From: Rubripirellula sp.
Lineage (GTDB): Bacteria > Planctomycetota > Planctomycetia > Pirellulales > Pirellulaceae
Direction: 5' to 3'
DNA: 37,273 nt
Assembly (NCBI GenBank): GCA_028823035.1
Contig: JAPKCI010000038.1
Span: 1 to 37,273 of the forward strand
The number at the start of each line of letters is the position of its first letter. Positions within the stretch are counted from its first letter, which is position 1. This document shows positions 5,050 through 21,413 of the stretch, piece by piece. Under the pieces are notes generated by a model. It saw only the letters and a program-made list of their open reading frames with translations. It did not search any database and was not told where the DNA came from. Both the position numbers and the translations under genes were made by a program.

Positions 5050-6723
5050 ATGCTGTCAATGACTCTGCTTTCGTTTCTTTTCTTCACCGGATTGGTGGCC
5101 GTCCTGACTTGGTGGGTCACACGTGGCACGAATCTAGATACCGACGAAGGGTATTTTCTGGCGGGGCGAAGTTTGACTGGCATCTTCATTGCCGGCTCGC
5201 TGCTGTTGACCAATTTATCAACCGAGCAACTGATTGGATTGAATGCGGGATCCTTCGATCAGGGGCTGTCGGTGATGTGTTGGGAAGTGGTCGCTGGCAT
5301 GTCGCTGGTCATTTTGGCTTTGGTCTTTCTACCGCGTTACCTCAAATCGGGAATCGCGACGATCCCCCAGTTTCTTGAGGAGCGATATGGTTCTCCGGTC
5401 AGAGCGTTGACGGCAGGCATCTTCATCGTGGCTTACATGCTGATTCTGTTGCCGTTTGTTTTGTTTCTAGGAGCACGTGGACTCAACGGTATGCTTGGAC
5501 TGGAAGGCATGCTTGGTTTTCCCAATGAGCTAACGACCATCTGGGCCGTCATCATTTTCATCGCCGTACTTGGCGGAGCCTATGCGATTTGGGGTGGAAT
5601 GCGAGCAATCGCCGTGTCTGACACCTTCAATGGCGCCGGTTTGTTGATTGGTGGATTGATGATCACCTTCTTTTCCTTAAGAGTGGTTGCCGGAGACGAA
5701 GGTGGATTCATGGGAGCCTTTGAGAAGATCAAGGCGGCTGATCCCGATGCTTTCAACTCCTTGGGCGGATCGGATGAAGATACACATTGGCCGACACTGT
5801 TCACCGGCGTGTTACTGCTGAACTTTTTTTACTGGTGCACCAATCAGCAGATCATTCAACGTACGTTTGGAGCCAAGAATCTGGCCGAGGGTCAAAAGGG
5901 TGTGCTGCTGGCGGCGTTCTTCAAAATCCTGGCACCGCTGATTCTGGTTTTACCCGGGATCATCGCAGCCTATCTGGTAATCGGCATTGCGGATCCCGAA
6001 ATGATGGCTGACGTTGGAAAGAATCAGGAAGGAAAATGGGTCGCTGACCGAGCCTATGGTGCTCTGGTGAGCAAAGTGCTGCCCACCTGGTTTTTAGGTT
6101 TCTTTGCTGCCGTGGTGGTAGGTTCGATTTTGTCAACATTCAATTCGGTGCTCAATTCCGCAGCGACATTGTTTTCTCTGGATGTTTACAAGAAGTACTT
6201 GAATCCCGAAGCTTCCACCAAATCGGTCGTCCGATCAGGTCAGATTTGCAGTTTACTGATCGGGATCTTTGCCGTGGTTGCAGCGCCCAATATTTTCCAT
6301 GGCCGCGAAGCAATTTTTGGATTTTTCCAGACGCTCAACGGAGTCTACTTCATCCCACTGTTGGCCATCATCATGGTCGGGATGTTCAACCGATATGCCG
6401 ATGGCAAATCGGCGTTGATCACGTTGCTGGTGGGTTTGGGGCTGATGATCATCGGTACCTTCTTTACCGGTGAGGTCAAAGAACCTGAAACAAGCGGGTG
6501 GTTGAAGGACTACTTCGGTTCCCCATTCCATTACATGGGCGCGGTATTTGCCTTGTTAATTGCTTTGCAACTGGCACTCAGTGCCGCAGGCATGAAGAGA
6601 GCCGAACCCTATGTTCAAGTCGATGCTGGTCTCGTTGATCTGACACCTTGGAAACCAGCTCGCTATGTCGGTGCTGCATTGATTCTGTTGGTCCTCGCGA
6701 TCTATGCATTTTTCGCGATCTAA
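5050..6723 (+). CDS. Sodium/solute symporter, SSS (SLC5) family (557 aa)
   Basis: An inner-membrane transporter coupling sodium influx to uptake of a small organic solute, probably a sugar given the neighbours. The protein has about 13-14 hydrophobic segments from the first residues (LLSFLFFTGLVAVLTWWV) to the C-terminal helix (ALILLVLAIYAFFAI). The segment DEGYFLAGRSLTG, followed by an LLLTNLSTEQLIG helix, matches the start of SSS carriers. GSILSTFNSVLNSAATLFSLDVYKKYL (about 357-383) corresponds to the helix carrying the sodium-site serines in sugar symporters such as vSGLT. Two long loops (about 211-250 and 310-335) are polar. It lies 230 bp upstream of the sulfatase-GH43 gene on the same strand, which suggests import of the released sugar. 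Co-transcription is unproven. Confidence 0.95.
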   Translation: MLSMTLLSFLFFTGLVAVLTWWVTRGTNLDTDEGYFLAGRSLTGIFIAGSLLLTNLSTEQLIGLNAGSFDQGLSVMCWEVVAGMSLVILALVFLPRYLKSGIATIPQFLEERYGSPVRALTAGIFIVAYMLILLPFVLFLGARGLNGMLGLEGMLGFPNELTTIWAVIIFIAVLGGAYAIWGGMRAIAVSDTFNGAGLLIGGLMITFFSLRVVAGDEGGFMGAFEKIKAADPDAFNSLGGSDEDTHWPTLFTGVLLLNFFYWCTNQQIIQRTFGAKNLAEGQKGVLLAAFFKILAPLILVLPGIIAAYLVIGIADPEMMADVGKNQEGKWVADRAYGALVSKVLPTWFLGFFAAVVVGSILSTFNSVLNSAATLFSLDVYKKYLNPEASTKSVVRSGQICSLLIGIFAVVAAPNIFHGREAIFGFFQTLNGVYFIPLLAIIMVGMFNRYADGKSALITLLVGLGLMIIGTFFTGEVKEPETSGWLKDYFGSPFHYMGAVFALLIALQLALSAAGMKRAEPYVQVDAGLVDLTPWKPARYVGAALILLVLAIYAFFAI

Positions 6724-6953: not shown

Positions 6954-9900
6954 ATGACACACCCTCAGCTTAATGCCTTCCCCTCCATCAGCCGCCTCAG
7001 CCTTTGCCTTGCGGCTTTCTTCTACACTCAGTTTGCGTTATTGTCGGCAGACAAACCACCGCGGCAACGGCCCAACATCATCGTCGTTTTCATCGATGAC
7101 ATGGGCTGGTCAGATCTGTCGTGTTTCGCTGGCAAGCAAGTCAAAACCGAACAAATTGATCGTCTGGCTGCCGAGGGGATCCGGTTCACCAACTTCTATG
7201 TCAATTCGCCGATCTGCTCTCCCTCGCGTGTCGCTCTGGCCACGGGCCAGTATCCACAGCGATGGCGAATCACCTCGTACCTGAACAATCGACGTTCGAA
7301 TCACGAACGGGGCATGGCCCAATGGCTGGACCCGGCAGCCCCAATGTTGGCAAGAGAATTACAACAAGCGGGCTATGCCACCGGCCATTTCGGAAAATGG
7401 CACATGGGTGGTCAACGCGATGTGGGCGACGCCCCGCTGATTCAAGAATATGGTTTCGATCGTTCGCTGACCAACTTTGAAGGGCTCGGGCCTCGCGTGC
7501 TGCCTCTCAAGGATGCTTACGACGGCAATCCACCCGGCCGACACGATTTGGGCTCTGCAAAACTTGGCAAGGGTCCAATTCAATGGATGGACCGTTCGGT
7601 CATCACAGCTGAGTTCACTCGGCAAGCCATCGATTTCATCGATCAAGCCAAGGCTGCCAACCAACCCTTCTATGTCAACGTCTGGCCCGACGACGTCCAT
7701 TCGCCATTTTTTCCGCCTCAGAACCTGCGTAAACAAACAGATGGCAGTAAACGGGCTTTGTATTACGCAGTCCTCGATGCAATGGACCAGCAACTGGGTG
7801 TTCTGTTCAACCGGATACGCGGCGATGAACAACTGCGGAACAACACACTAATCATTCTGGCATCGGACAATGGGCACGAAGAGGGTGCCGGTCAGTCAGA
7901 TCCTCTACGAGGTGCCAAGACATGGCTTTATGAAGGTGGTATCCGATCACCCTTGATCGTTTGGGGGCCGGGACTGATCAATCAACAAGCAGCAGGGACG
8001 ACGAACGAGGTTTCCATTCTGTGCGCGATGGACATCAATGCTTCGCTTTATTCCATCGCTGATGTCGCATCCCCGGCAGAAACCACGCTCGATGGTGAAC
8101 CGTTAGCTGCAACGTTGCTGGGTAACTCACTTGAAAGTCGGTCCAAGCCCATCTTTTGGCGGCGACCTCCCGATCGTCCCGGCACCCAACGCGAAGACAA
8201 CCCAGACCTTGCCGTGCGTCATGGTCGATGGAAATTCCTTGTCAATCATGATGGTAGTAAGCCGCAACTTTTCGATCTCAAACAAGACGCAAGTGAGCAA
8301 CACAATGTTGCGGCATCCCATCCCGACATCGCAGATCGCTTGCTCACCACCGTTCAGGCATGGAACAGAGAACTTCCTGCTGACGCTGGCGTTCCCGGCT
8401 TTCAGAACACCGGCAACGTTACAGAACCGCTCGCTGACGATCAATTCATCAACCCCGTGGGTGAGGGTGCTGATCCATGGGTCATTCGTGATCCAAACGC
8501 AAATCGTTATCTGTGGTGCCTGTCTGAAGGCAATCGGGCGATCGCGATACACACTTCTGATCGTCTGGAATCAATGGGACAGAAACACATTGTTTGGGAA
8601 GCTCCCAACGAGGGACCGTATTCCAAAGAAGTCTGGGCTCCCGAACTGCATTTCCTTGATGGTCGATGGTACATCTATTTTGCAGCATCCGATGGGAACA
8701 ACGCCAACCATCTTTCCTACGTGCTTGAAAGTGAAGGCCCGAATCCACTTGGTCCTTATTCGCTGCGCGGCCCCTTGGCGACAGGTCAAGGCAAGGATGG
8801 ACGCAGCCCCAATCTGTGGGCCATCGATGTCACGGTGCTGGAGCACGATGGCAAGAAATTCGCGATCTGGTCTGGCTGGGATGCTCAGGGTACCGACCAA
8901 CAGTACCTGTACATTGCCCGCATGAAATCTGCGACTGAACTGGCGGGTCCGAGAGTCCGCCTGTGCAACAACGATGATTACCCGTGGGAATTTACCCAAT
9001 ACACAGGTGATCCCGAATCGCTTGACAAAGGCCGCGGTTTGAACGAAGCGCCTCAATCATTCAAGTCCAAGGGCCGGACCTTCATTACCTACTCGTGCGG
9101 TGCATCCTGGCTGCCCACCTACAAATTGGGACTATTGGAACTCACCGGCCAGAACCCTCTCGAACCCCAGGCCTGGAAAAAACGTCCGACACCCGTCTTC
9201 ACCGGCGACAGAACAACCATCGGCGTCGGGCATTCCTGCTTTGTCCGTTCACTGGACGGCAGCGAGCTCTGGCATGTCTATCACGCCAAACGGGATCGCG
9301 ATCCCGGTTGGCGAAGAACTGTCTTTGTGCAACCGATGAAAACCGGAACACTTGGCTTTCCGTTGCTTGGTCGCCCCACAGCGCGCGGAACCACGACGCT
9401 GCGACCGAGCGGGGGAAAACCACGGCCAGCCCGCCAGCAATTCAAGCAATCACTGCGACAGAAAACACCTCCGGTGGATTTCAACTACTACGGTCATCAC
9501 CAATATGTCAGGCCAACAACCAGAGGGTTTGAGCTTGGTGTCATCCCCGCCGATCCCGTCAATGCTTTCCGAAGCGGCGAAAAGATTGTGTTCGACGGGA
9601 CACTGCCATCCGATATCGATGTGTCAGTCACGATCGATCTGCTGGGACAATCCGATGCGCGTGACGCAGGCCTGCTGGTACGCACCAGCGGACCTTCCGT
9701 TGGATATGATTCCCAGCGAGGTTACTTTGCTGGTTTAATCCCCAGAACCGGCCTGGTCATTTTCGGAAAGACAGATGGCGATGCATGGACAGAATTGGCC
9801 CGGCAGAAGAGCAGTTTCAATCCGAAAAAAGATCAGCGACTGAGAGTCATCTGCCGTGGGGATCAGTTCACTGTGAACCTGAATGGAAAGCCAGTGATAT

Positions 9901-10004
9901 CGGTCAATGATCCAACTTATGATCGTGGAACGATCGGCCTACGTGTGGTCGACACCCATGCGGTTTTCAAGGATCTTGAATTAACGCCATTGCACAACAA
10001 CTAA
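6954..10004 (+). CDS. Trimodular sulfatase / GH43-like glycosidase / lectin-like fusion (1016 aa)
   Basis: Predicted exported bifunctional enzyme that removes sulfate esters and cleaves a glycosidic bond of the same glycan. Residues 1-32 are a signal peptide. Residues 38-480 are a type I sulfatase: metal-binding DD at 48-49, CSPSR at 88-92 (Cys88 is converted to formylglycine), GKWH at 147-150, DNG at 305-307, GGIRSP near 328-333. Residues 500-800 read as a five-bladed GH43-type propeller: GADPW with candidate base D507, WAPELHFLDGRWYIYFAAS near 561-579, AIDVTVLEHDGKKFAIWSGW with D625, and NEAPQSFKSKG with candidate acid E698. Residues 840-1016 resemble a DUF1080/laminin-G-like beta-sandwich. 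Frame and spacing are continuous, so this is one protein. It follows the symporter by 230 bp. Free sulfatases are about 450-500 aa, half this length. The substrate (sulfated arabinan, xylan or similar) is inference. Confidence 0.9.
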   Translation: MTHPQLNAFPSISRLSLCLAAFFYTQFALLSADKPPRQRPNIIVVFIDDMGWSDLSCFAGKQVKTEQIDRLAAEGIRFTNFYVNSPICSPSRVALATGQYPQRWRITSYLNNRRSNHERGMAQWLDPAAPMLARELQQAGYATGHFGKWHMGGQRDVGDAPLIQEYGFDRSLTNFEGLGPRVLPLKDAYDGNPPGRHDLGSAKLGKGPIQWMDRSVITAEFTRQAIDFIDQAKAANQPFYVNVWPDDVHSPFFPPQNLRKQTDGSKRALYYAVLDAMDQQLGVLFNRIRGDEQLRNNTLIILASDNGHEEGAGQSDPLRGAKTWLYEGGIRSPLIVWGPGLINQQAAGTTNEVSILCAMDINASLYSIADVASPAETTLDGEPLAATLLGNSLESRSKPIFWRRPPDRPGTQREDNPDLAVRHGRWKFLVNHDGSKPQLFDLKQDASEQHNVAASHPDIADRLLTTVQAWNRELPADAGVPGFQNTGNVTEPLADDQFINPVGEGADPWVIRDPNANRYLWCLSEGNRAIAIHTSDRLESMGQKHIVWEAPNEGPYSKEVWAPELHFLDGRWYIYFAASDGNNANHLSYVLESEGPNPLGPYSLRGPLATGQGKDGRSPNLWAIDVTVLEHDGKKFAIWSGWDAQGTDQQYLYIARMKSATELAGPRVRLCNNDDYPWEFTQYTGDPESLDKGRGLNEAPQSFKSKGRTFITYSCGASWLPTYKLGLLELTGQNPLEPQAWKKRPTPVFTGDRTTIGVGHSCFVRSLDGSELWHVYHAKRDRDPGWRRTVFVQPMKTGTLGFPLLGRPTARGTTTLRPSGGKPRPARQQFKQSLRQKTPPVDFNYYGHHQYVRPTTRGFELGVIPADPVNAFRSGEKIVFDGTLPSDIDVSVTIDLLGQSDARDAGLLVRTSGPSVGYDSQRGYFAGLIPRTGLVIFGKTDGDAWTELARQKSSFNPKKDQRLRVICRGDQFTVNLNGKPVISVNDPTYDRGTIGLRVVDTHAVFKDLELTPLHNN

Positions 10005-10059: not shown

Positions 10060-10473
10060 TCAGACCGTTTCGAAGTCAACAGGAAAGTCTTCGAGTTTCT
10101 CTACGTAGACACCGCCCATTCCATAAAACGGTCCTGCATCAGCCTGCCACTCCATCAATACCACAAGATTCACTTCGGTATCGGCCAGCTTCAATTGAAC
10201 GGCAAGTCGATTCACATCCAGTGGCTCGGTGTGAAAAAATCCGATCGAAGTGGGCGAGACATCCCGGGTGATCACCTCAATTGGATCACCCACCGGTTGA
10301 TTATCCTCGTCCAGCGGAACAACAACCACTGGAATCGCCATGGTGTGCCGCTTGTCCTGCCGGCGTTCCCCACCTTTGTAGACAGTGGAATTGAGAAATT
10401 GCCTCTTGGCAAAGTCGCTCAGTTCCTGCGGCAGTTTCTTCAAAGGACGGCAAAGATTGGTCTCGGTAAACAA
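10060..10473 (-). CDS. PilZ-domain protein, TTG start (137 aa)
   Basis: Probable cyclic-di-GMP-responsive regulator or adaptor in the cytoplasm. A short N-terminal region (1-35) precedes a PilZ-like domain (about 36-130). RRQDKRH at 37-43 supplies the RxxxR element. TRDVSPTSIGFFH near 69-81 supplies the second motif, in which the usual DxSxxG has Ser in place of the first Gly. The end, FYGMGGVYVE, resembles the closing strand of PilZ domains. No upstream in-frame ATG exists before a stop, so the start is TTG at 10473 or another non-ATG codon nearby. It lies antisense between the two sulfatase genes. Control of surface or adhesion behaviour is a guess from the family. Confidence 0.75.
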   Translation of the reverse strand: MFTETNLCRPLKKLPQELSDFAKRQFLNSTVYKGGERRQDKRHTMAIPVVVVPLDEDNQPVGDPIEVITRDVSPTSIGFFHTEPLDVNRLAVQLKLADTEVNLVVLMEWQADAGPFYGMGGVYVEKLEDFPVDFETV

Positions 10474-10992
10474 GGTCAGATCTCGTAACGGGGATCAGGG
10501 GATACGTGCTCAACATTGGTGCCCCCCGGCATCCAAACAAGTCCCCCGTACGACGAACTGTCATCAACTAAAGTCCGCATCAGAAAAGTGGGGTACGGAT
10601 CGGGGGGGTGAGCGATTGAAACGATCCAGCGGCACCAAAACTACCGTCAACGGTTTCCAAAGGAACGGTTAAAACGGTTGTTCCGCCTAATGACCACACA
10701 CCAAGCTGTTGAAGTATCATTGTCATTGCGTGGAAATAACCCCGCTAAACATTCTGTTTCGAGTCGTCAGACGTTACTGATTCACGAAAGACAGGGGAGC
10801 CTCATGCCCCAATTACCAGCCAAGGCAACAACGCATCACTCATGGAATGATTGACTGTTTCGAAAGAATGAACACAACGCTTTCGAAAGAATGAACACAA
10901 CGCGGCCAGCCTCAGCGGCAGTCCATGCTACTGCCTCGCGAACCCACGACACCCGCAAGCACCGTCCAAAACCAAGACACCGGAACCTCAAT
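10474..10992. other. Non-coding gap upstream of the second sulfatase
   Basis: About 520 bp without a supported gene. It would hold the divergent promoters of the PilZ gene and the second sulfatase gene. The notable structure is the 23-bp tandem duplication at 10858-10903. Confidence 0.55.
10858..10903. repeat. 23-bp tandem duplication upstream of a sulfatase gene
   Basis: Two identical 23-bp units (10858-10880 and 10881-10903), each beginning TTTCGAAAGAATGAACACAA and ending CGC. Each contains the palindrome TTTCGAAA in part and a GAACAC element. The second copy ends 89 bp before the chosen sulfatase start. A duplicated regulatory site is possible; slippage is the simpler explanation. Confidence 0.95.
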
Positions 10993-12384
10993 ATGAAATC
11001 TTTCCCTGAACTCAATGGGAGCTTGATGACCTGGTTAATCTGCCTGTTGCCGATGACAGGATTTACTGCGAACGCGGCTGAAAAACCCAACGTCGTGATT
11101 CTGCTAGCGGATGATCTGGGATATCAGGACATTGGCTGTTACGGCGGACCCGTGAAAACGCCAACGTTGGATTCATTGGCCGCCCGTGGCACACGCTTTG
11201 AACAATTCTATTCCGGCTGCGCCGTCTGCTCACCATCGCGGGCAACGCTAATGACAGGTCGTCATCATATCCGAACGGGTGTTTACAGTTGGATTCATGA
11301 TGCCAATCAAAAATCCCACCTCCTGCCGCGCGAGGTCACTGTGGCGGAAATTCTGCGGGCCGCCGGATACCAAACGGCACACGTCGGCAAATGGCATCTT
11401 GGACTGCCGACCGAACAACATGCCAAGCCAACGCCTGACCAGCATGGCTTTGATTACTGGTTTGCCACTTGGAACAATGCCGAACCCAGTCACAGGAACC
11501 CCAACAATTTCATCCGCAATGGAAAGCCAGTGGGGCAGCTCGAGGGTTACGCATGCCAGCTAGTGGTCGATGAAGCCATTTCATGGCTGGATACGCAACA
11601 CCACCCTGACCAACCGTTCTTTTTGAATGTCTGGTTTCATGAGCCACATGCGCCGATCGCTGCCCCCGATGCCATCGTCAACCAGTATGGTTCCAGCAAG
11701 GACAAAGCCGCCATCTACTCCGGCACCATCGACAATACCGACAGGGCAATTTCCCGTCTGTTGAAGAAACTCAAACAGGTCGCTAGTGAACAGGACACGC
11801 TCATCATTTACGCCTCGGACAATGGCAGCTACCGGGACGATCGCACCGGCGGCCTGCGCGGTCGCAAAGGTGTGAACTGGGAGGGCGGCCTTCGGGTCCC
11901 AGGTATCTTCAGTTGGCCGGGTGTCATACGAACCGATGTCGTCTCATCCACCCCCGCTGGACTAGTCGATGTCCTGCCAACGATCTGCGGGTTGCTCGAA
12001 ATTGAAAAACCGAATCGGCATCTGGACGGTACCGACCTGACTCCGATTCTGACCGGGCGGAATGATTCATGGCACCGCCAACAACCGTTGTTTTGGCATC
12101 TTCAGAAATCTCGCCCGATTGTCGCGATGCGAGACGGAAACCATTCATTGGTTGCGGAACCGGATTACGAGCTGTCCACCAACAACATGTTCCAGGAAGC
12201 ATGGATTCCCACCATCAGATCTGGTGGCTACCGAAACTATCAGCTGTTCGATCTGACCGCAGATCCGCAGCAACAGAACAACATTGCCGCCGAAAACCCG
12301 CAGTTACTTGAACAACTGAAAAGCAAACTCCTGAAAATCAACCGCAGTATCATGGATGAAGCCCACGACTGGACCACTGAGTAA
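10993..12384 (+). CDS. Exported type I sulfatase (463 aa)
   Basis: Hydrolyses sulfate esters, probably on a polysaccharide, outside the cytoplasm. The start at 10993 gives a normal signal peptide (MKSFPELNGS then a hydrophobic core, cleavage near ANA at 26-28); the upstream ATG at 10891 would add 34 basic residues. Sulfatase motifs: DD at 40-41, CSPSR at 79-83 with Cys79 as the formylglycine precursor, HVGKWHLG near 131-138, ASDNGSYRDD near 274-283, GGLRVPG near 302-308. The length is normal for the family. It contains GRHHIRTGVYSW after the active site, as in arylsulfatase A-like planctomycete enzymes. It lies 187 bp upstream of the DUF6807 gene on the same strand. The FGly-generating enzyme is not in this window. 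The exact substrate is unknown. Confidence 0.93.
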   Translation: MKSFPELNGSLMTWLICLLPMTGFTANAAEKPNVVILLADDLGYQDIGCYGGPVKTPTLDSLAARGTRFEQFYSGCAVCSPSRATLMTGRHHIRTGVYSWIHDANQKSHLLPREVTVAEILRAAGYQTAHVGKWHLGLPTEQHAKPTPDQHGFDYWFATWNNAEPSHRNPNNFIRNGKPVGQLEGYACQLVVDEAISWLDTQHHPDQPFFLNVWFHEPHAPIAAPDAIVNQYGSSKDKAAIYSGTIDNTDRAISRLLKKLKQVASEQDTLIIYASDNGSYRDDRTGGLRGRKGVNWEGGLRVPGIFSWPGVIRTDVVSSTPAGLVDVLPTICGLLEIEKPNRHLDGTDLTPILTGRNDSWHRQQPLFWHLQKSRPIVAMRDGNHSLVAEPDYELSTNNMFQEAWIPTIRSGGYRNYQLFDLTADPQQQNNIAAENPQLLEQLKSKLLKINRSIMDEAHDWTTE

Positions 12385-12571: not shown

Positions 12572-13486
12572 ATGTACCGCTCTCTCACTCTCTGCAGCTT
12601 ATTTTTGTTCGGAATCGCTGCAAGCACGGCTAACGCTGCCGATGCTTATCAGGTCAAGGACACTCCCGGGCAATACGCGGATGTCATCACGCCTGCCGGG
12701 CAACCGATCCTTCGGTACATGTACGCCCGTGACACAGCGGACGAGTCCAAGACCTTTGACACCGCCAAGATCTATGCACACGTCTTTGCGGATGACGGCG
12801 AAACGACCCTAACCAAGGGAGCCGGTGGCAAGTTCCCGCATCATCGCGGCATTTTCATCGGCTGGAATAAACTCAAGCATGGTGGCAAGAGCCATGACCT
12901 TTGGCACGTTCGCAACACAGTACAGAAACACCGTGAATTCGAAGAAATCGAAGCGGCAGACAAGGGAGCCAGGATCACATCGCTGATCGATTGGATTGGC
13001 ACCGATGGCAAACCTGTCATCGAAGAAAAGCGAACCTACAAAATAACGGCTGAAGATGGAGCACACGCGGTGATTGACTTCACCGCCAAACTCACAGCGG
13101 TCGGCAGTGATGTGGAACTCAATGGTGACCCCGAGCACGCAGGGGTGCAGTTCCGCCCGTCTCAACAGGTTGCTGAAAACCAATCAGCTGCCTACACGTT
13201 TCACAAGGATGGAACCGACCCCAAAGTGGACCGCGACCTTCCTTGGGTCGCCGAGAGTTTTCAGGTGGGGGACGACTGGTGGTCAGTGCAACACATGAGC
13301 CATCCGTCGAATCCCGACGGCGCACGCTGGTCGGCGTACCGCGACTACGGCCGCTTCGGACCCTTCACCGTCGTGAACATCGCCGACGGCGAATCCATTA
13401 CATTTCGCTATCGTTTCCGAGTGACTAAAGGAAAAACAGACGACCGAAACGCGTTGCAGGCATGTTTTGAACAATACAGCAAATAA
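12572..13486 (+). CDS. Exported PmoA-like DUF6807 protein (304 aa)
   Basis: Member of the family often annotated as methane oxygenase PmoA (DUF6807), common in planctomycetes. The name is historical and no methane oxidation is implied. Residues 1-22 are a signal peptide (TLCSLFLFGIAASTANA). The conserved core contains PILRYMYARD near 46-55, the His-rich KFPHHRGIFIGWNKLKHGGKSHDLWH near 87-112 and EHAGVQFRPSQQ near 188-199, then DLPWVAESF and the closing FRYRFRV strands. These are typical of the family, whose fold is thought to be beta-rich. The His cluster could bind metal. It follows the second sulfatase on the same strand and may belong to the same glycan-use locus. The biochemical role is unestablished. 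Confidence 0.9.
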   Translation: MYRSLTLCSLFLFGIAASTANAADAYQVKDTPGQYADVITPAGQPILRYMYARDTADESKTFDTAKIYAHVFADDGETTLTKGAGGKFPHHRGIFIGWNKLKHGGKSHDLWHVRNTVQKHREFEEIEAADKGARITSLIDWIGTDGKPVIEEKRTYKITAEDGAHAVIDFTAKLTAVGSDVELNGDPEHAGVQFRPSQQVAENQSAAYTFHKDGTDPKVDRDLPWVAESFQVGDDWWSVQHMSHPSNPDGARWSAYRDYGRFGPFTVVNIADGESITFRYRFRVTKGKTDDRNALQACFEQYSK

Positions 13487-18112: not shown

Positions 18113-18393
18113 TCGCCGCTAAAAAGCGTGAATTGCCCCTAAAACGTTACTTTTCTATGCTGGCACGCACCCGCAACGTGATTCGTCTAGGCATGTTCTG
18201 TCAGGCGTCTATACTTCTGCCATCGAAACGCCGTGTTTTTGGCCTCTGGACTCACGAATCGCCCTGATTGGGTGAATGGGGACCTTGCCCGTCCAGAAAC
18301 AAGATTCCGCAGAGCCGTCTCGATCAGAGCGTTTCCGGCAGTCTGGTTTTGCACGTCACACTCGCTCACAACCGCACCACACAGTTTCCCGAA

Positions 18394-19305
18394 ATGTCGG
18401 ATTACAGCCTCACTCATCTCAAGCAGCTCGAAGCTGAGAGCATTCACATCCTCCGTGAAGTCGTCTCGGAATTCCAAAAGCCAGTCATGCTGTACAGCGT
18501 CGGCAAGGATTCAGCAGTACTGGTTCATCTGGCCCGTAAAGCCTTTTACCCGGGCAAGCCACCCTTTCCTCTAATGCATGTGGACACGACCTGGAAGTTT
18601 CGGGAAATGATCGAGTTCCGCGAACAATACGCGCGTAAGGAACTGGGACTCGACCTGATCGTCTACACCAATGAGGAAGGCCTGAAACACGACATCAAGC
18701 CTTGGGAAGACAGCGAGCGTCACACCGAGTTGATGAAGACCGATGCCCTCAAGACTGCTCTCGACAAATACCAATTCGATGCAGCTTTTGGTGGCGCACG
18801 ACGCGACGAAGAAAAAAGTCGGGCCAAGGAACGGGTATTCAGCTTCCGCGACAAGTCACACCGCTGGGACCCCAAGAATCAGCGTCCTGAACTATGGAAC
18901 CTGTACAACGGAAGGGTCAACAAAGGCGAATCGATTCGAGTCTTTCCAATGAGCAATTGGACCGAACTCGATGTCTGGCAATACATCCACCTGGAAGACA
19001 TTCCGATCGTTCCGCTCTACAAGTCGGCGATGCGCAAAGTCGTCCGCAGAGATGGCATTCTGCTGATGTTGGATGACGATCGCATGCCACTGCTGCCTGG
19101 TGAAAAAGCAGAAAACAAAATGGTTCGTTTTCGAACACTCGGCTGTTACCCGCTGTCGGGTGCTGTCGAAAGCGAAGCGACCACGTTGCCTGAGATCATC
19201 CAGGAAATGCTGCTTGCCAAAACAAGCGAACGGCAGGGCCGGATCATCGATCAGGACGAAGGTGGCGCCGGGATGGAAGAAAAGAAACGGCGTGGCTACT
19301 TCTAG
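18394..19305 (+). CDS. cysD: Sulfate adenylyltransferase subunit 2, CysD (303 aa)
   Basis: Adenylates sulfate with ATP to form APS in the cytoplasm, together with CysN. The start at 18394 ([19 protein letters not shown]) matches the family's N-terminus; an earlier ATG at 18268 would add 42 unrelated residues. The ATP-pyrophosphatase loop is [10 protein letters not shown] at 34-43. Further family blocks are [14 protein letters not shown] near 61-74, [41 protein letters not shown] near 131-171, [18 protein letters not shown] near 180-197, and the C-terminal [14 protein letters not shown]. It is complete at normal length. The gap to cysNC is 170 bp, larger than usual for this pair, yet the two subunits must act together. 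Confidence 0.96.
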
Positions 19306-19475
19306 CCCCGCAACCTTTCCATCCAACAACCGCCACCGGAGCCAATGGCCGCCCGTGTGACACCGGGCCTGATGATGGCCCACCCGTACCCAACGCAAAT
19401 ACATCTGCTGCAAACAAGCAACCTCCGTCGCCTCTCGATCCAACCCTCGTGGTCAAACAATCCTGAATCGTTCTC

Positions 19476-21413
19476 ATGAGCCATCAATCTGACCTGATCG
19501 CCACTGACATCCATGCGTACCTGAAACAGCATGAGTCCAAGCAACTCATGCGTTTCATCACTTGCGGTAGTGTTGACGACGGAAAAAGCACTCTGATCGG
19601 TCGTCTGCTGTATGACAGCAAGATGATCTATGAGGACCAACTTTTGCAACTCGAAGCTGAATCGAAATTGTTCGGCACAACCGATGGAAAATTTGACCCG
19701 GCGCTGCTTACCGATGGCTTGAAAGCTGAACGTGAGCAAGGCATCACCATCGACGTTGCATATCGATACTTCAGCACTCCGAAACGCAAATTCATCATTG
19801 CCGACACGCCTGGTCACGAGCAGTACACTCGCAACATGGCGACTGGGGCCAGCACCGCTGATCTGGCTGTGATCCTGATCGACGCGAGACATGGCGTTTT
19901 AACCCAAACACGACGCCACAGTTTCATCGTCTCGTTGCTGGGCATCCGGCATGTGATCGTTGCCGTCAACAAAATGGACCTGGTCGATTTTGACGAAGGC
20001 CGATTCAACGAGATCTGTGACGAGTATCGATCGTTCGCAATGCGGTTGGACCTGCCTGACCTGCACTTCATCCCGATCAGTGCGTTAGACGGCGACAACG
20101 TCGTGGATCGCAGCGAAAAATCGCCCTGGTACAGCGGAAGCACGCTGATGAACTTCCTGGAAACGGTCTACATCGGAAGCGACCGGAATCTGCAGGACTT
20201 TCGCATGCCAGTCCAGTACGTCAGTCGCCCCAATCTGGATTTCCGCGGATTCTGCGGAACAATCGCATCGGGAATCATTCGGCCGGGCGAAGAAATCATG
20301 GTATTGCCCAGTCGGCAAACATCCAAGGTCAAGGAAATTGTCACCTTTGATGGAGCCTTGGAAGAAGCCTTCGTGCCATTGTCGATCACCCTCACGCTGG
20401 AAGATGAGATCGATGCCAGTCGCGGCGACATGATCGTCCGCCCCGGCAACCTGCCGAGATCACGCGACCAGATCGAAGCCATGCTGGTCTGGATGGATTC
20501 CGAATCGATGGTTCCCGGCAAGACTTACCTGTTCAAACATACTTCACAGACACAACCCGGCACCATTGATTCGCTCAAGTACCGAGTCGACGTCAACACA
20601 CTGCACCGCGATCCGGCACCAGAACTTGGCCTGAACGAAATCGGTCGCGTCAGCATTTCACTCAACGCACCCATTCACTTTGATGCCTATCGCCGCAACC
20701 GGAACACCGGCGCGTTCATTGTGGTCGACCGGATCACCAACGCCACCGTCGCCTCCGGCATGATCCTCGATAAATCGGGAGACGGGTCACCCAAGTCGGT
20801 GTGGGATGATGAAGTAAAATCAGATGATGACAGCAACGAAGTTTCTGCCGTTTCCGCTGAAGAACGTTCTGCCCGCTTTGGACAACAACCAGCAACCGTG
20901 CTACTGACAGGATTGACTGGCAGCGGGAAAACATCCATCGGTATGGCTGTGGAACGCAAACTCTTCGAACAGGGACGCGCGGTAGCCATGATCGACGGCG
21001 AGTACGTCCGCCGAGGTCTGAACCGTGATTTGGGCTACACCGCTGAGGACCGAAGCGAAAATCTGAGGCGTAGCGGCCACCTTGCCCACACTTTGAATGA
21101 TGCCGGTTTGATTTGCCTGGCTTCCTTTGTCGCTCCCTCTGAAGATGTCCGCCAGAAAGTCGGGATGCTGATTGGTGAGGAACGATTCCTGGTCGTGCAT
21201 GTTGCCACATCAATAGATGTCTGCCGCGCACGCGATACCAAAGGACAGTACAAGCAAGCCGACGAAGGGAATTTGCCAAACTTCCCCGGTGTCACAGCAA
21301 AGTACGAAGCCCCCGCTGAACCCGATCTGGTGCTCGACGCAGCAAAACAAAATATCGATACCTGCGCCGACGCTGTCATCGAGTTGCTCCGATCGAAAAA
21401 CAAGATCAAGTAG
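19476..21413 (+). CDS. cysNC: Sulfate adenylyltransferase GTPase / APS kinase fusion, CysNC (645 aa)
   Basis: Bifunctional cytoplasmic enzyme: the N-terminal GTPase drives APS formation by CysD, and the C-terminal kinase phosphorylates APS to PAPS. GTPase signatures: GSVDDGKST at 31-39, [11 protein letters not shown] from 110, NKMD at 165-168, followed by EF-Tu-like beta-barrel domains to about 435. A charged linker ([19 protein letters not shown]) joins the APS kinase. Its P-loop is GLTGSGKTS near 479-487, then [23 protein letters not shown] near 508-530 and a C-terminal KYEAP...PDLVLD. In the [11 protein letters not shown] element the serine phosphorylated in E. coli CysC (SFIS-type position) appears to be Ala. 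No cysH or cysI is nearby, so PAPS could serve assimilation or sulfotransferases. Confidence 0.95.

Follow-up and report, generated by a model that had tools for sequence, protein, structure and literature searches.

The stretch of DNA analysed here (the window, meaning all 37,273 nucleotides of contig JAPKCI010000038.1 from Rubripirellula sp.) carries on its forward strand a single gene that joins a sulfatase, a glycosidase of family GH43 and a C-terminal module resembling DUF1080 and CBM66. The frame, at 6954-10004 (+), opens with ATG and holds 1016 codons and zero internal stops. Its parts are as follows.

6954..10004, + strand: fusion gene, 1016 aa, in the order signal peptide, S1 sulfatase, GH43, DUF1080/CBM66-like module (one open frame, Pfam)
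6954..7052, + strand: probable Sec signal peptide, residues 1-33 (hydrophobic run, then LLSA-DK, read by eye from the translation)
7059..8393, + strand: sulfatase module, residues 36-480 (PF00884 at 40-365, weaker matches to sulfatase C-terminal domains, PDB sulfatases)
7215..7229, + strand: CSPSR, residues 88-92, formylglycine motif (C88 and R92 in 77/77 aligned sulfatase domains)
7866..7874, + strand: DNG, residues 305-307, metal site (D305 and N306 in 77/77)
8439..9398, + strand: GH43 module, residues 496-815 (PF04616 at 500-796; GH43_26 structures 9nxj, 9nxg, 3akf)
8472..8474, + strand: D507, catalytic base, aligned to AtAbf43C D168 (51/51 GH43 domains)
8826..8828, + strand: D625, pKa modulator, aligned to AtAbf43C D283 (51/51 GH43 domains)
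9045..9047, + strand: E698, catalytic acid, aligned to AtAbf43C E344 (51/51 GH43 domains)
9489..9995, + strand: C-terminal module, residues 846-1014, DUF1080/CBM66-like (PF06439, 31.3 bits; levanase 4azz, E 9e-10)

A first-pass annotation, made from the letters of the sequence, had described this frame as a complete type I sulfatase continuing into a GH43-like part at residues 500-800 and a DUF1080-type C-terminus, with CSPSR at 88-92, DNG at 305-307 and D507, D625 and E698 as candidate catalytic residues. Profile searches bear this out, placing all three domains above their Pfam cut-offs: Sulfatase (PF00884) at residues 40-365 with 149.8 bits (cut-off 25), Glyco_hydro_43 (PF04616) at residues 500-796 with 143.2 bits (cut-off 32.2) and 3keto-disac_hyd (DUF1080, PF06439) at residues 886-1010 with 31.3 bits (cut-off 26.8). 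The motifs and the triad lie exactly at the positions first named. With all catalytic residues of both enzymes present and both catalytic domains complete in the same frame, the gene qualifies as a sulfatase-glycosidase fusion. Its product is probably secreted, judging from the resemblance of the N-terminus to a Sec signal.

The sulfatase module shows the features that define the S1 (type I, formylglycine) sulfatases, namely a C-x-P-S-R motif with cysteine, the metal ligands D, D, D and N, and a sulfate-binding histidine and lysine. Across 77 sulfatase domains, D48, D49, C88, R92, H145, K148, H150, H249, D305, N306 and K322 are invariant; D48, D49, D305, N306, H249 and K322 align with D18, D19, D263, N264, H201 and K287 of 9fo1, which are metal ligands and the sulfate-binding H/K. 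Among solved structures the best match is 7stt, followed by the kappa-carrageenan sulfatase 9fo1 (AMOR_S1_16A; 30.3% identity) and 6ust. The module shares with the S1_16 enzymes 9fo1 and 6ust the S1 sulfatase family, the formylglycine motif, the metal ligands and the sulfate-binding lysine and histidine, but membership in S1_16 was rejected: W79 of 9fo1, the conserved S1_16 tryptophan that walls the pocket (PMC11760155), corresponds to Y109, and the aligned domains have tyrosine in 67/77 and phenylalanine in 10/77. Opposite His149 of 9fo1, which lies near the S0 sugar, the protein reads F-E-G-L-G, with E176, G177 and G179 kept in 77/77 and an alignment gap nearby.

For the GH43 module, a score above the Pfam cut-off is combined with the D/D/E triad that marks the family. 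The best solved matches are 9nxj and 9nxg (33.5% identity to 9nxj), with 3k1u, 5m8b and 3akf also found. Structures 9nxj and 9nxg (AtAbf43C) and 3akf (SaAraf43A) are GH43_26 exo-1,5-alpha-L-arabinofuranosidases; the pocket of AtAbf43C, which acts as an exo enzyme, is deep and narrow, and alanine mutants of AtAbf43C at D168, D283 and E344 are inactive (PMC12493170). The likeness to AtAbf43C and SaAraf43A consists of alignment across the GH43 domain and an identical catalytic triad; these two proteins carry CBM42 and not a sulfatase, whereas the window protein carries a sulfatase. Assignment to GH43_26 by identity was not supported, the 33.5% to AtAbf43C comparing with 49-63% for ten characterised GH43_26 enzymes (PMC12493170).

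The C-terminal match to PF06439 spans only profile positions 52-186 of 187. Residues 875-1010 align with Bacillus subtilis levanase 4azz (E 9e-10), and all three solved matches of this region (4azz, 4b1l and 4b1m) are levanase entries, chains that we take to be CBM66 and non-catalytic. The relation of the window's C-terminus to the levanase CBM66 is one of sequence, at 27.2% identity.

Relatives were collected by a protein scan with one genome per species, and the best 80 of 586 or more confirmed stretches form the set of related loci. Sulfatase and GH43 share one frame in 53 of these 80, a fraction that overstates the frequency of fusion among sulfatase relatives because the loci are the best 80 of at least 586. 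No stop separates the modules in the window gene or in these 53 frames, and 48 of the 53 also include the C-terminal module; of the five that do not, L073, L083, L085 and L089 end at a contig edge and L087 does not. The identical module order is kept as a single frame in 43 relatives at 53-76% identity. Fused loci occur in Pirellulaceae, in other Planctomycetota and in Verrucomicrobiota, with L087 belonging to Kiritimatiellota; the domain order first noted in the window is widespread in both Planctomycetota and Verrucomicrobiota. Cultured carriers include Stieleria tagensis (L045) and a strain of Rhodopirellula baltica (L054). The fusion is real, far beyond chance, and no sequencing accident. 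Among 241 genomes of the window's family, 69 match the GH43 part, 47 of them strongly (E below 1e-120), and in 32 of these 47 the frame with the strong match has 998 codons or more. A plasmid search with the GH43 and C-terminal parts gave 34 records, all below 60% identity; of the five listed, four bear a GH43 annotation.

The arrangement of modules varies considerably among the relatives. Residue counts, the sulfatase tree and the neighbour tally given below cover 77 sequences in which the core gene was called, namely the window and 76 loci; L062, L083, L085 and L095 are absent from these and are counted in the 80-locus frame tally. Placing the four architecture labels on the tree takes 18 changes against a minimum of 3, and both phyla are mixed. 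Two labels are wrong, those of L089 (unfused) and L112 (without GH43), both loci being cut by contig ends; similarly, genome G184 probably looks unfused because its two halves sit on different contigs. A second, SGSH-like sulfatase lies N-terminal to the first in 22 of the 77 rows, in 16 of these with GH43 in frame. In L061 (3222-12197), a 2991-aa frame combines GH2 domains, a TraB/PrgY domain, two sulfatases, GH43 and a CBM66-like module, along with a GH5-like stretch whose match is below cut-off, and after it come a GH127-sulfatase gene that overlaps it and a gene for a double sulfatase. In L080 (2249-20164), one cluster holds a sulfatase-GH2, a sulfatase-sulfatase-GH43-CBM66-like, a sulfatase-GH43 and a sulfatase-GH127 protein, as well as a sulfatase with a laminin-G-like end matched below cut-off. 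Locus L094 encodes the modules by separate genes lying next to one another, in the order sulfatase, another sulfatase with 60% identity to that of the window, SGSH-like sulfatase and GH43-CBM protein (the C-terminal counterpart of which scores 19.9 bits, under the PF06439 cut-off), with a galactose mutarotase after them. The occurrence of the modules as neighbouring genes in L094 is a Rosetta-stone argument for a shared pathway. A further frame, of 1391 aa in L103 (7791-11966), holds three sulfatase domains and no GH43.

Fusions of this general kind have been described before. The first-pass annotation had cited the GH78-sulfatase of Formosa agariphila, and PMC8511951 does report this protein, P36 (S1_25-GH78) of the ulvan pathway, in which one domain desulfates terminal rhamnose and the other removes the same rhamnose. 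P36 resembles the window protein in uniting a sulfatase and an exo-glycosidase, with consecutive exo desulfation and cleavage of one terminal sugar demonstrated for P36; it differs in sulfatase subfamily, in carrying GH78 and not GH43, and in phylum, and its sulfatase part, 6hr5, matches only at E 2.7e-18. Similarly, the parts of PMC6388578 covered describe the fusions S1_7-GH10, S1_7-GH32 and S1_15-GH29 in bacteria of the Planctomycetes-Verrucomicrobia-Chlamydiae (PVC) group and cite a Polaribacter fusion; these are proteins of the same kind from related bacteria with other partner families, and GH43 has zero occurrences in PMC6388578. Judging by protein length, PMC4807772 puts the number of multi-domain sulfatases in two planctomycetes at 34 and 21, with glycoside hydrolase and hypothetical domains as the commonest partners, and remarks that GH43/GH117 hits are frequent inside the sulfatases of planctomycetes; the architecture of the window protein is not described in the parts covered. 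A word search of the available text of PMC10880615 gave nothing on fusions. The hint of novelty in the first-pass annotation thus holds in part: beyond the general remarks of PMC4807772 and PMC6388578, the portions of the open-licence literature covered yielded no description of the sulfatase-GH43-CBM66-like (lectin-like) architecture or of its two-sulfatase form, yet the architecture is widespread and GH43/GH117 hits within sulfatases had already been mentioned.

Three genes around the fusion gene have counterparts beside its relatives.

5050..6723, + strand: YidK-type Na+:solute symporter (PRK10484), probable partner, 230 bp upstream of the fusion gene (NF007790, 668 bits, cut-off 401)
10891..12384, + strand: separate second sulfatase, 497 aa, probable partner (PF00884, 222 bits)
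12572..13486, + strand: DUF6807 protein (PF14100; neighbour kept in close relatives)

The YidK-type symporter is also found in L041-L044, L089 and G178, the second sulfatase in L041-L044 and L121, and the DUF6807 gene in L041, L043 and L044, L042 ending before that point. Within 8 kb of the 77 core genes, and with each neighbour cluster taking its name from one or two representatives, galactose mutarotase was counted in 11 cases, the YidK-type symporter in 9, another symporter family in 8, a XylR-type regulator in 7, a sugar MFS transporter in 6 and galactokinase in 5. A domain scan of 18 chosen neighbour proteins placed GH127 domains in L061, L080, L093 and L100, GH2 domains in L080, L087 and L100, and extra sulfatase-joined GH43 domains in L077 and L080; the rest of the 18 had no GH127, GH2 or sulfatase-joined GH43. 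GH127 includes beta-L-arabinofuranosidases (Pfam description) and also 3,6-anhydro-D-galactosidases of carrageenan breakdown (PMC5698469).

The host genome (7.4 Mb) has 11 FGE-family matches, and the proteins concerned could, in principle, mature Cys88. It gave 192 matches to the fusion protein, and among the matches listed all besides the protein itself hit the sulfatase part; only two genes of the genome are GH43. A standalone sulfatase paralogue, at C54:172-1536, shares 60% identity with the sulfatase module of the fusion; copies at 55-60% identity occur in 8 of the 12 genomes searched, and a ninth has one at 53%.

Taken together, these data lead us to favour, with moderate confidence, a secreted bifunctional exo-enzyme that removes sulfate from the end of a sulfated, arabinose- or galactose-rich glycan and then cleaves off that end. 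Host FGE proteins would convert Cys88 to formylglycine, and the N-terminal domain would hydrolyse a sulfate ester carried by the last sugar at the non-reducing end of a sulfated oligosaccharide. GH43, an inverting enzyme with D507 as base, D625 as pKa modulator and E698 as acid, would then cut off the unblocked terminal sugar while the CBM66-like domain holds the glycan end, and the neighbouring symporter would import the product. That sugar would most likely be alpha-L-arabinofuranose or its stereochemical match beta-D-galactofuranose (the two share ring stereochemistry), and the best candidate for the glycan is a sulfated galactan or arabinogalactan from algae. Both catalytic domains are very probably active; consecutive action of the two on one and the same glycan seems likely by analogy; the choice of arabinofuranose as the released sugar, suggested by family resemblance, falls a little short of an even chance.

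We favour this bifunctional reading because of the Pfam domains, the invariant residues, the 53 single frames, the gene order in L094, the arabinofuranosidase relatives and the 11 FGE genes, together with the S1_25-GH78 precedent and the presence of GH2, GH127, sulfatases, galK and galM in some relatives' clusters. The order of steps is proposed by analogy with S1_25-GH78, with the exo enzyme AtAbf43C and with 9fo1, which desulfates the non-reducing end (PMC11760155).

Several observations weigh against it. At 33.5% identity to AtAbf43C, the specificity of the GH43 module may have moved, and since the S1_16 tryptophan is missing, the position specificity of the sulfatase cannot be borrowed from that subfamily. 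Searches of the host genome found no match for the galactokinase binding signature, DgoK or AraA, so that, by these three marker families, the host's own genome does not support galactose or arabinose as the sugar, and the proposed sugar is argued from family resemblance and from gene neighbours elsewhere, in other genomes. Neither marker gene is enriched in family genomes with a strong GH43 homologue: galK occurs in 8 of these 47 genomes and in 57 of the 194 without one (p 0.10, a trend opposite to that expected), araA in 3 of the 47 and in 12 of the 194 (p 1.0). The modules also occur apart. In 27 of the 80 loci GH43 is missing from the sulfatase frame, one of them, L112, being cut by a contig end, and in G178, a genome of the window's own genus (L121:5386-10856), the symporter (82%) is followed by a GH43-CBM gene and a sulfatase (68%), with the sulfatase module missing. 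Elsewhere in G178 the closest sulfatase reported is 58% identical (142 of 247 candidates scored); the locus may reflect natural domain loss or an older state. The coupling is therefore not essential.

These cases bear on the strongest alternative, in which the catalytic domains act on different residues of one branched glycan, such as sulfated galactose and side-chain arabinofuranose, and the fusion serves co-delivery and fixed stoichiometry with no hand-over. We give this explanation well under an even chance. The repeated change of architecture on the sulfatase tree fits it, as do the GH43-CBM gene of G178 and the standalone sulfatase relatives, whose neighbours are galK and symporter genes but no GH43 in L102 and L120 (L120 also with galM) and GH127 and GH2 genes in L100; retention of the fusion across a long divergence in two phyla argues for the bifunctional exo-enzyme instead, and consecutive action is established for S1_25-GH78 (PMC8511951).

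An unlikely alternative is a carrageenan-like sulfated galactan as substrate, with GH43 acting on a galactose-derived residue and not on arabinose. The resemblance of the sulfatase to the kappa-carrageenan S1_16 enzyme 9fo1 points this way, and so do the galK and galM neighbours of some relatives and the carrageenan regulon of Zobellia, which is likewise made of GH127, GH2 and sulfatases (PMC5698469). However, GH43 occurs 0 times in the text of that paper, the S1_16 tryptophan is absent from the window sulfatase, and the GH43 relatives are arabinofuranosidases. Still less likely is a C-terminal domain that acts as a third catalytic domain, a 3-keto-disaccharide hydrolase, and not as a binding module: the PF06439 score does exceed its cut-off, but the partial coverage of the profile, the sub-threshold counterpart in L094 and the exclusively levanase structural matches favour binding. 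Nothing was found in favour of two adjacent genes being read as one by chance or by assembly artefact, and this idea can be dismissed, the single frame recurring through many assemblies, including the chromosome record L063, CP036432.1.

Sulfatases are extremely numerous in many planctomycetes and verrucomicrobia, and most of them have no assigned substrate; where a glycosidase is locked to a sulfatase, the sugar of the glycosidase points to the substrate of the sulfatase. A fusion kept in two phyla with varied partners thus offers natural pairs for matching sulfatases with glycosidases on sulfated algal glycans, and its recurrence suggests a built-in two-step machine for consuming sulfated polysaccharides. 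More speculatively, and with the odds against it, PVC bacteria may possess a class of glycan-degrading clusters, exemplified by L080 and L061, that covalently pair glycosidases with sulfatases; the window gene would be a widespread brick of an exo desulfate-then-cleave line for sulfated arabinogalactan, in which the sugar end passes between active sites of one chain.

Two further observations concern the surroundings of the gene. Between both sulfatase genes, at 10060-10473 (-), lies a 137-aa frame with no Pfam match at E 0.001, whose sequence reads like a PilZ domain. Some 6-8 kb downstream of both sulfatase genes, at 18268-21413, the window encodes a PAPS reductase and a fused CysN-CysC-like protein of sulfate assimilation.

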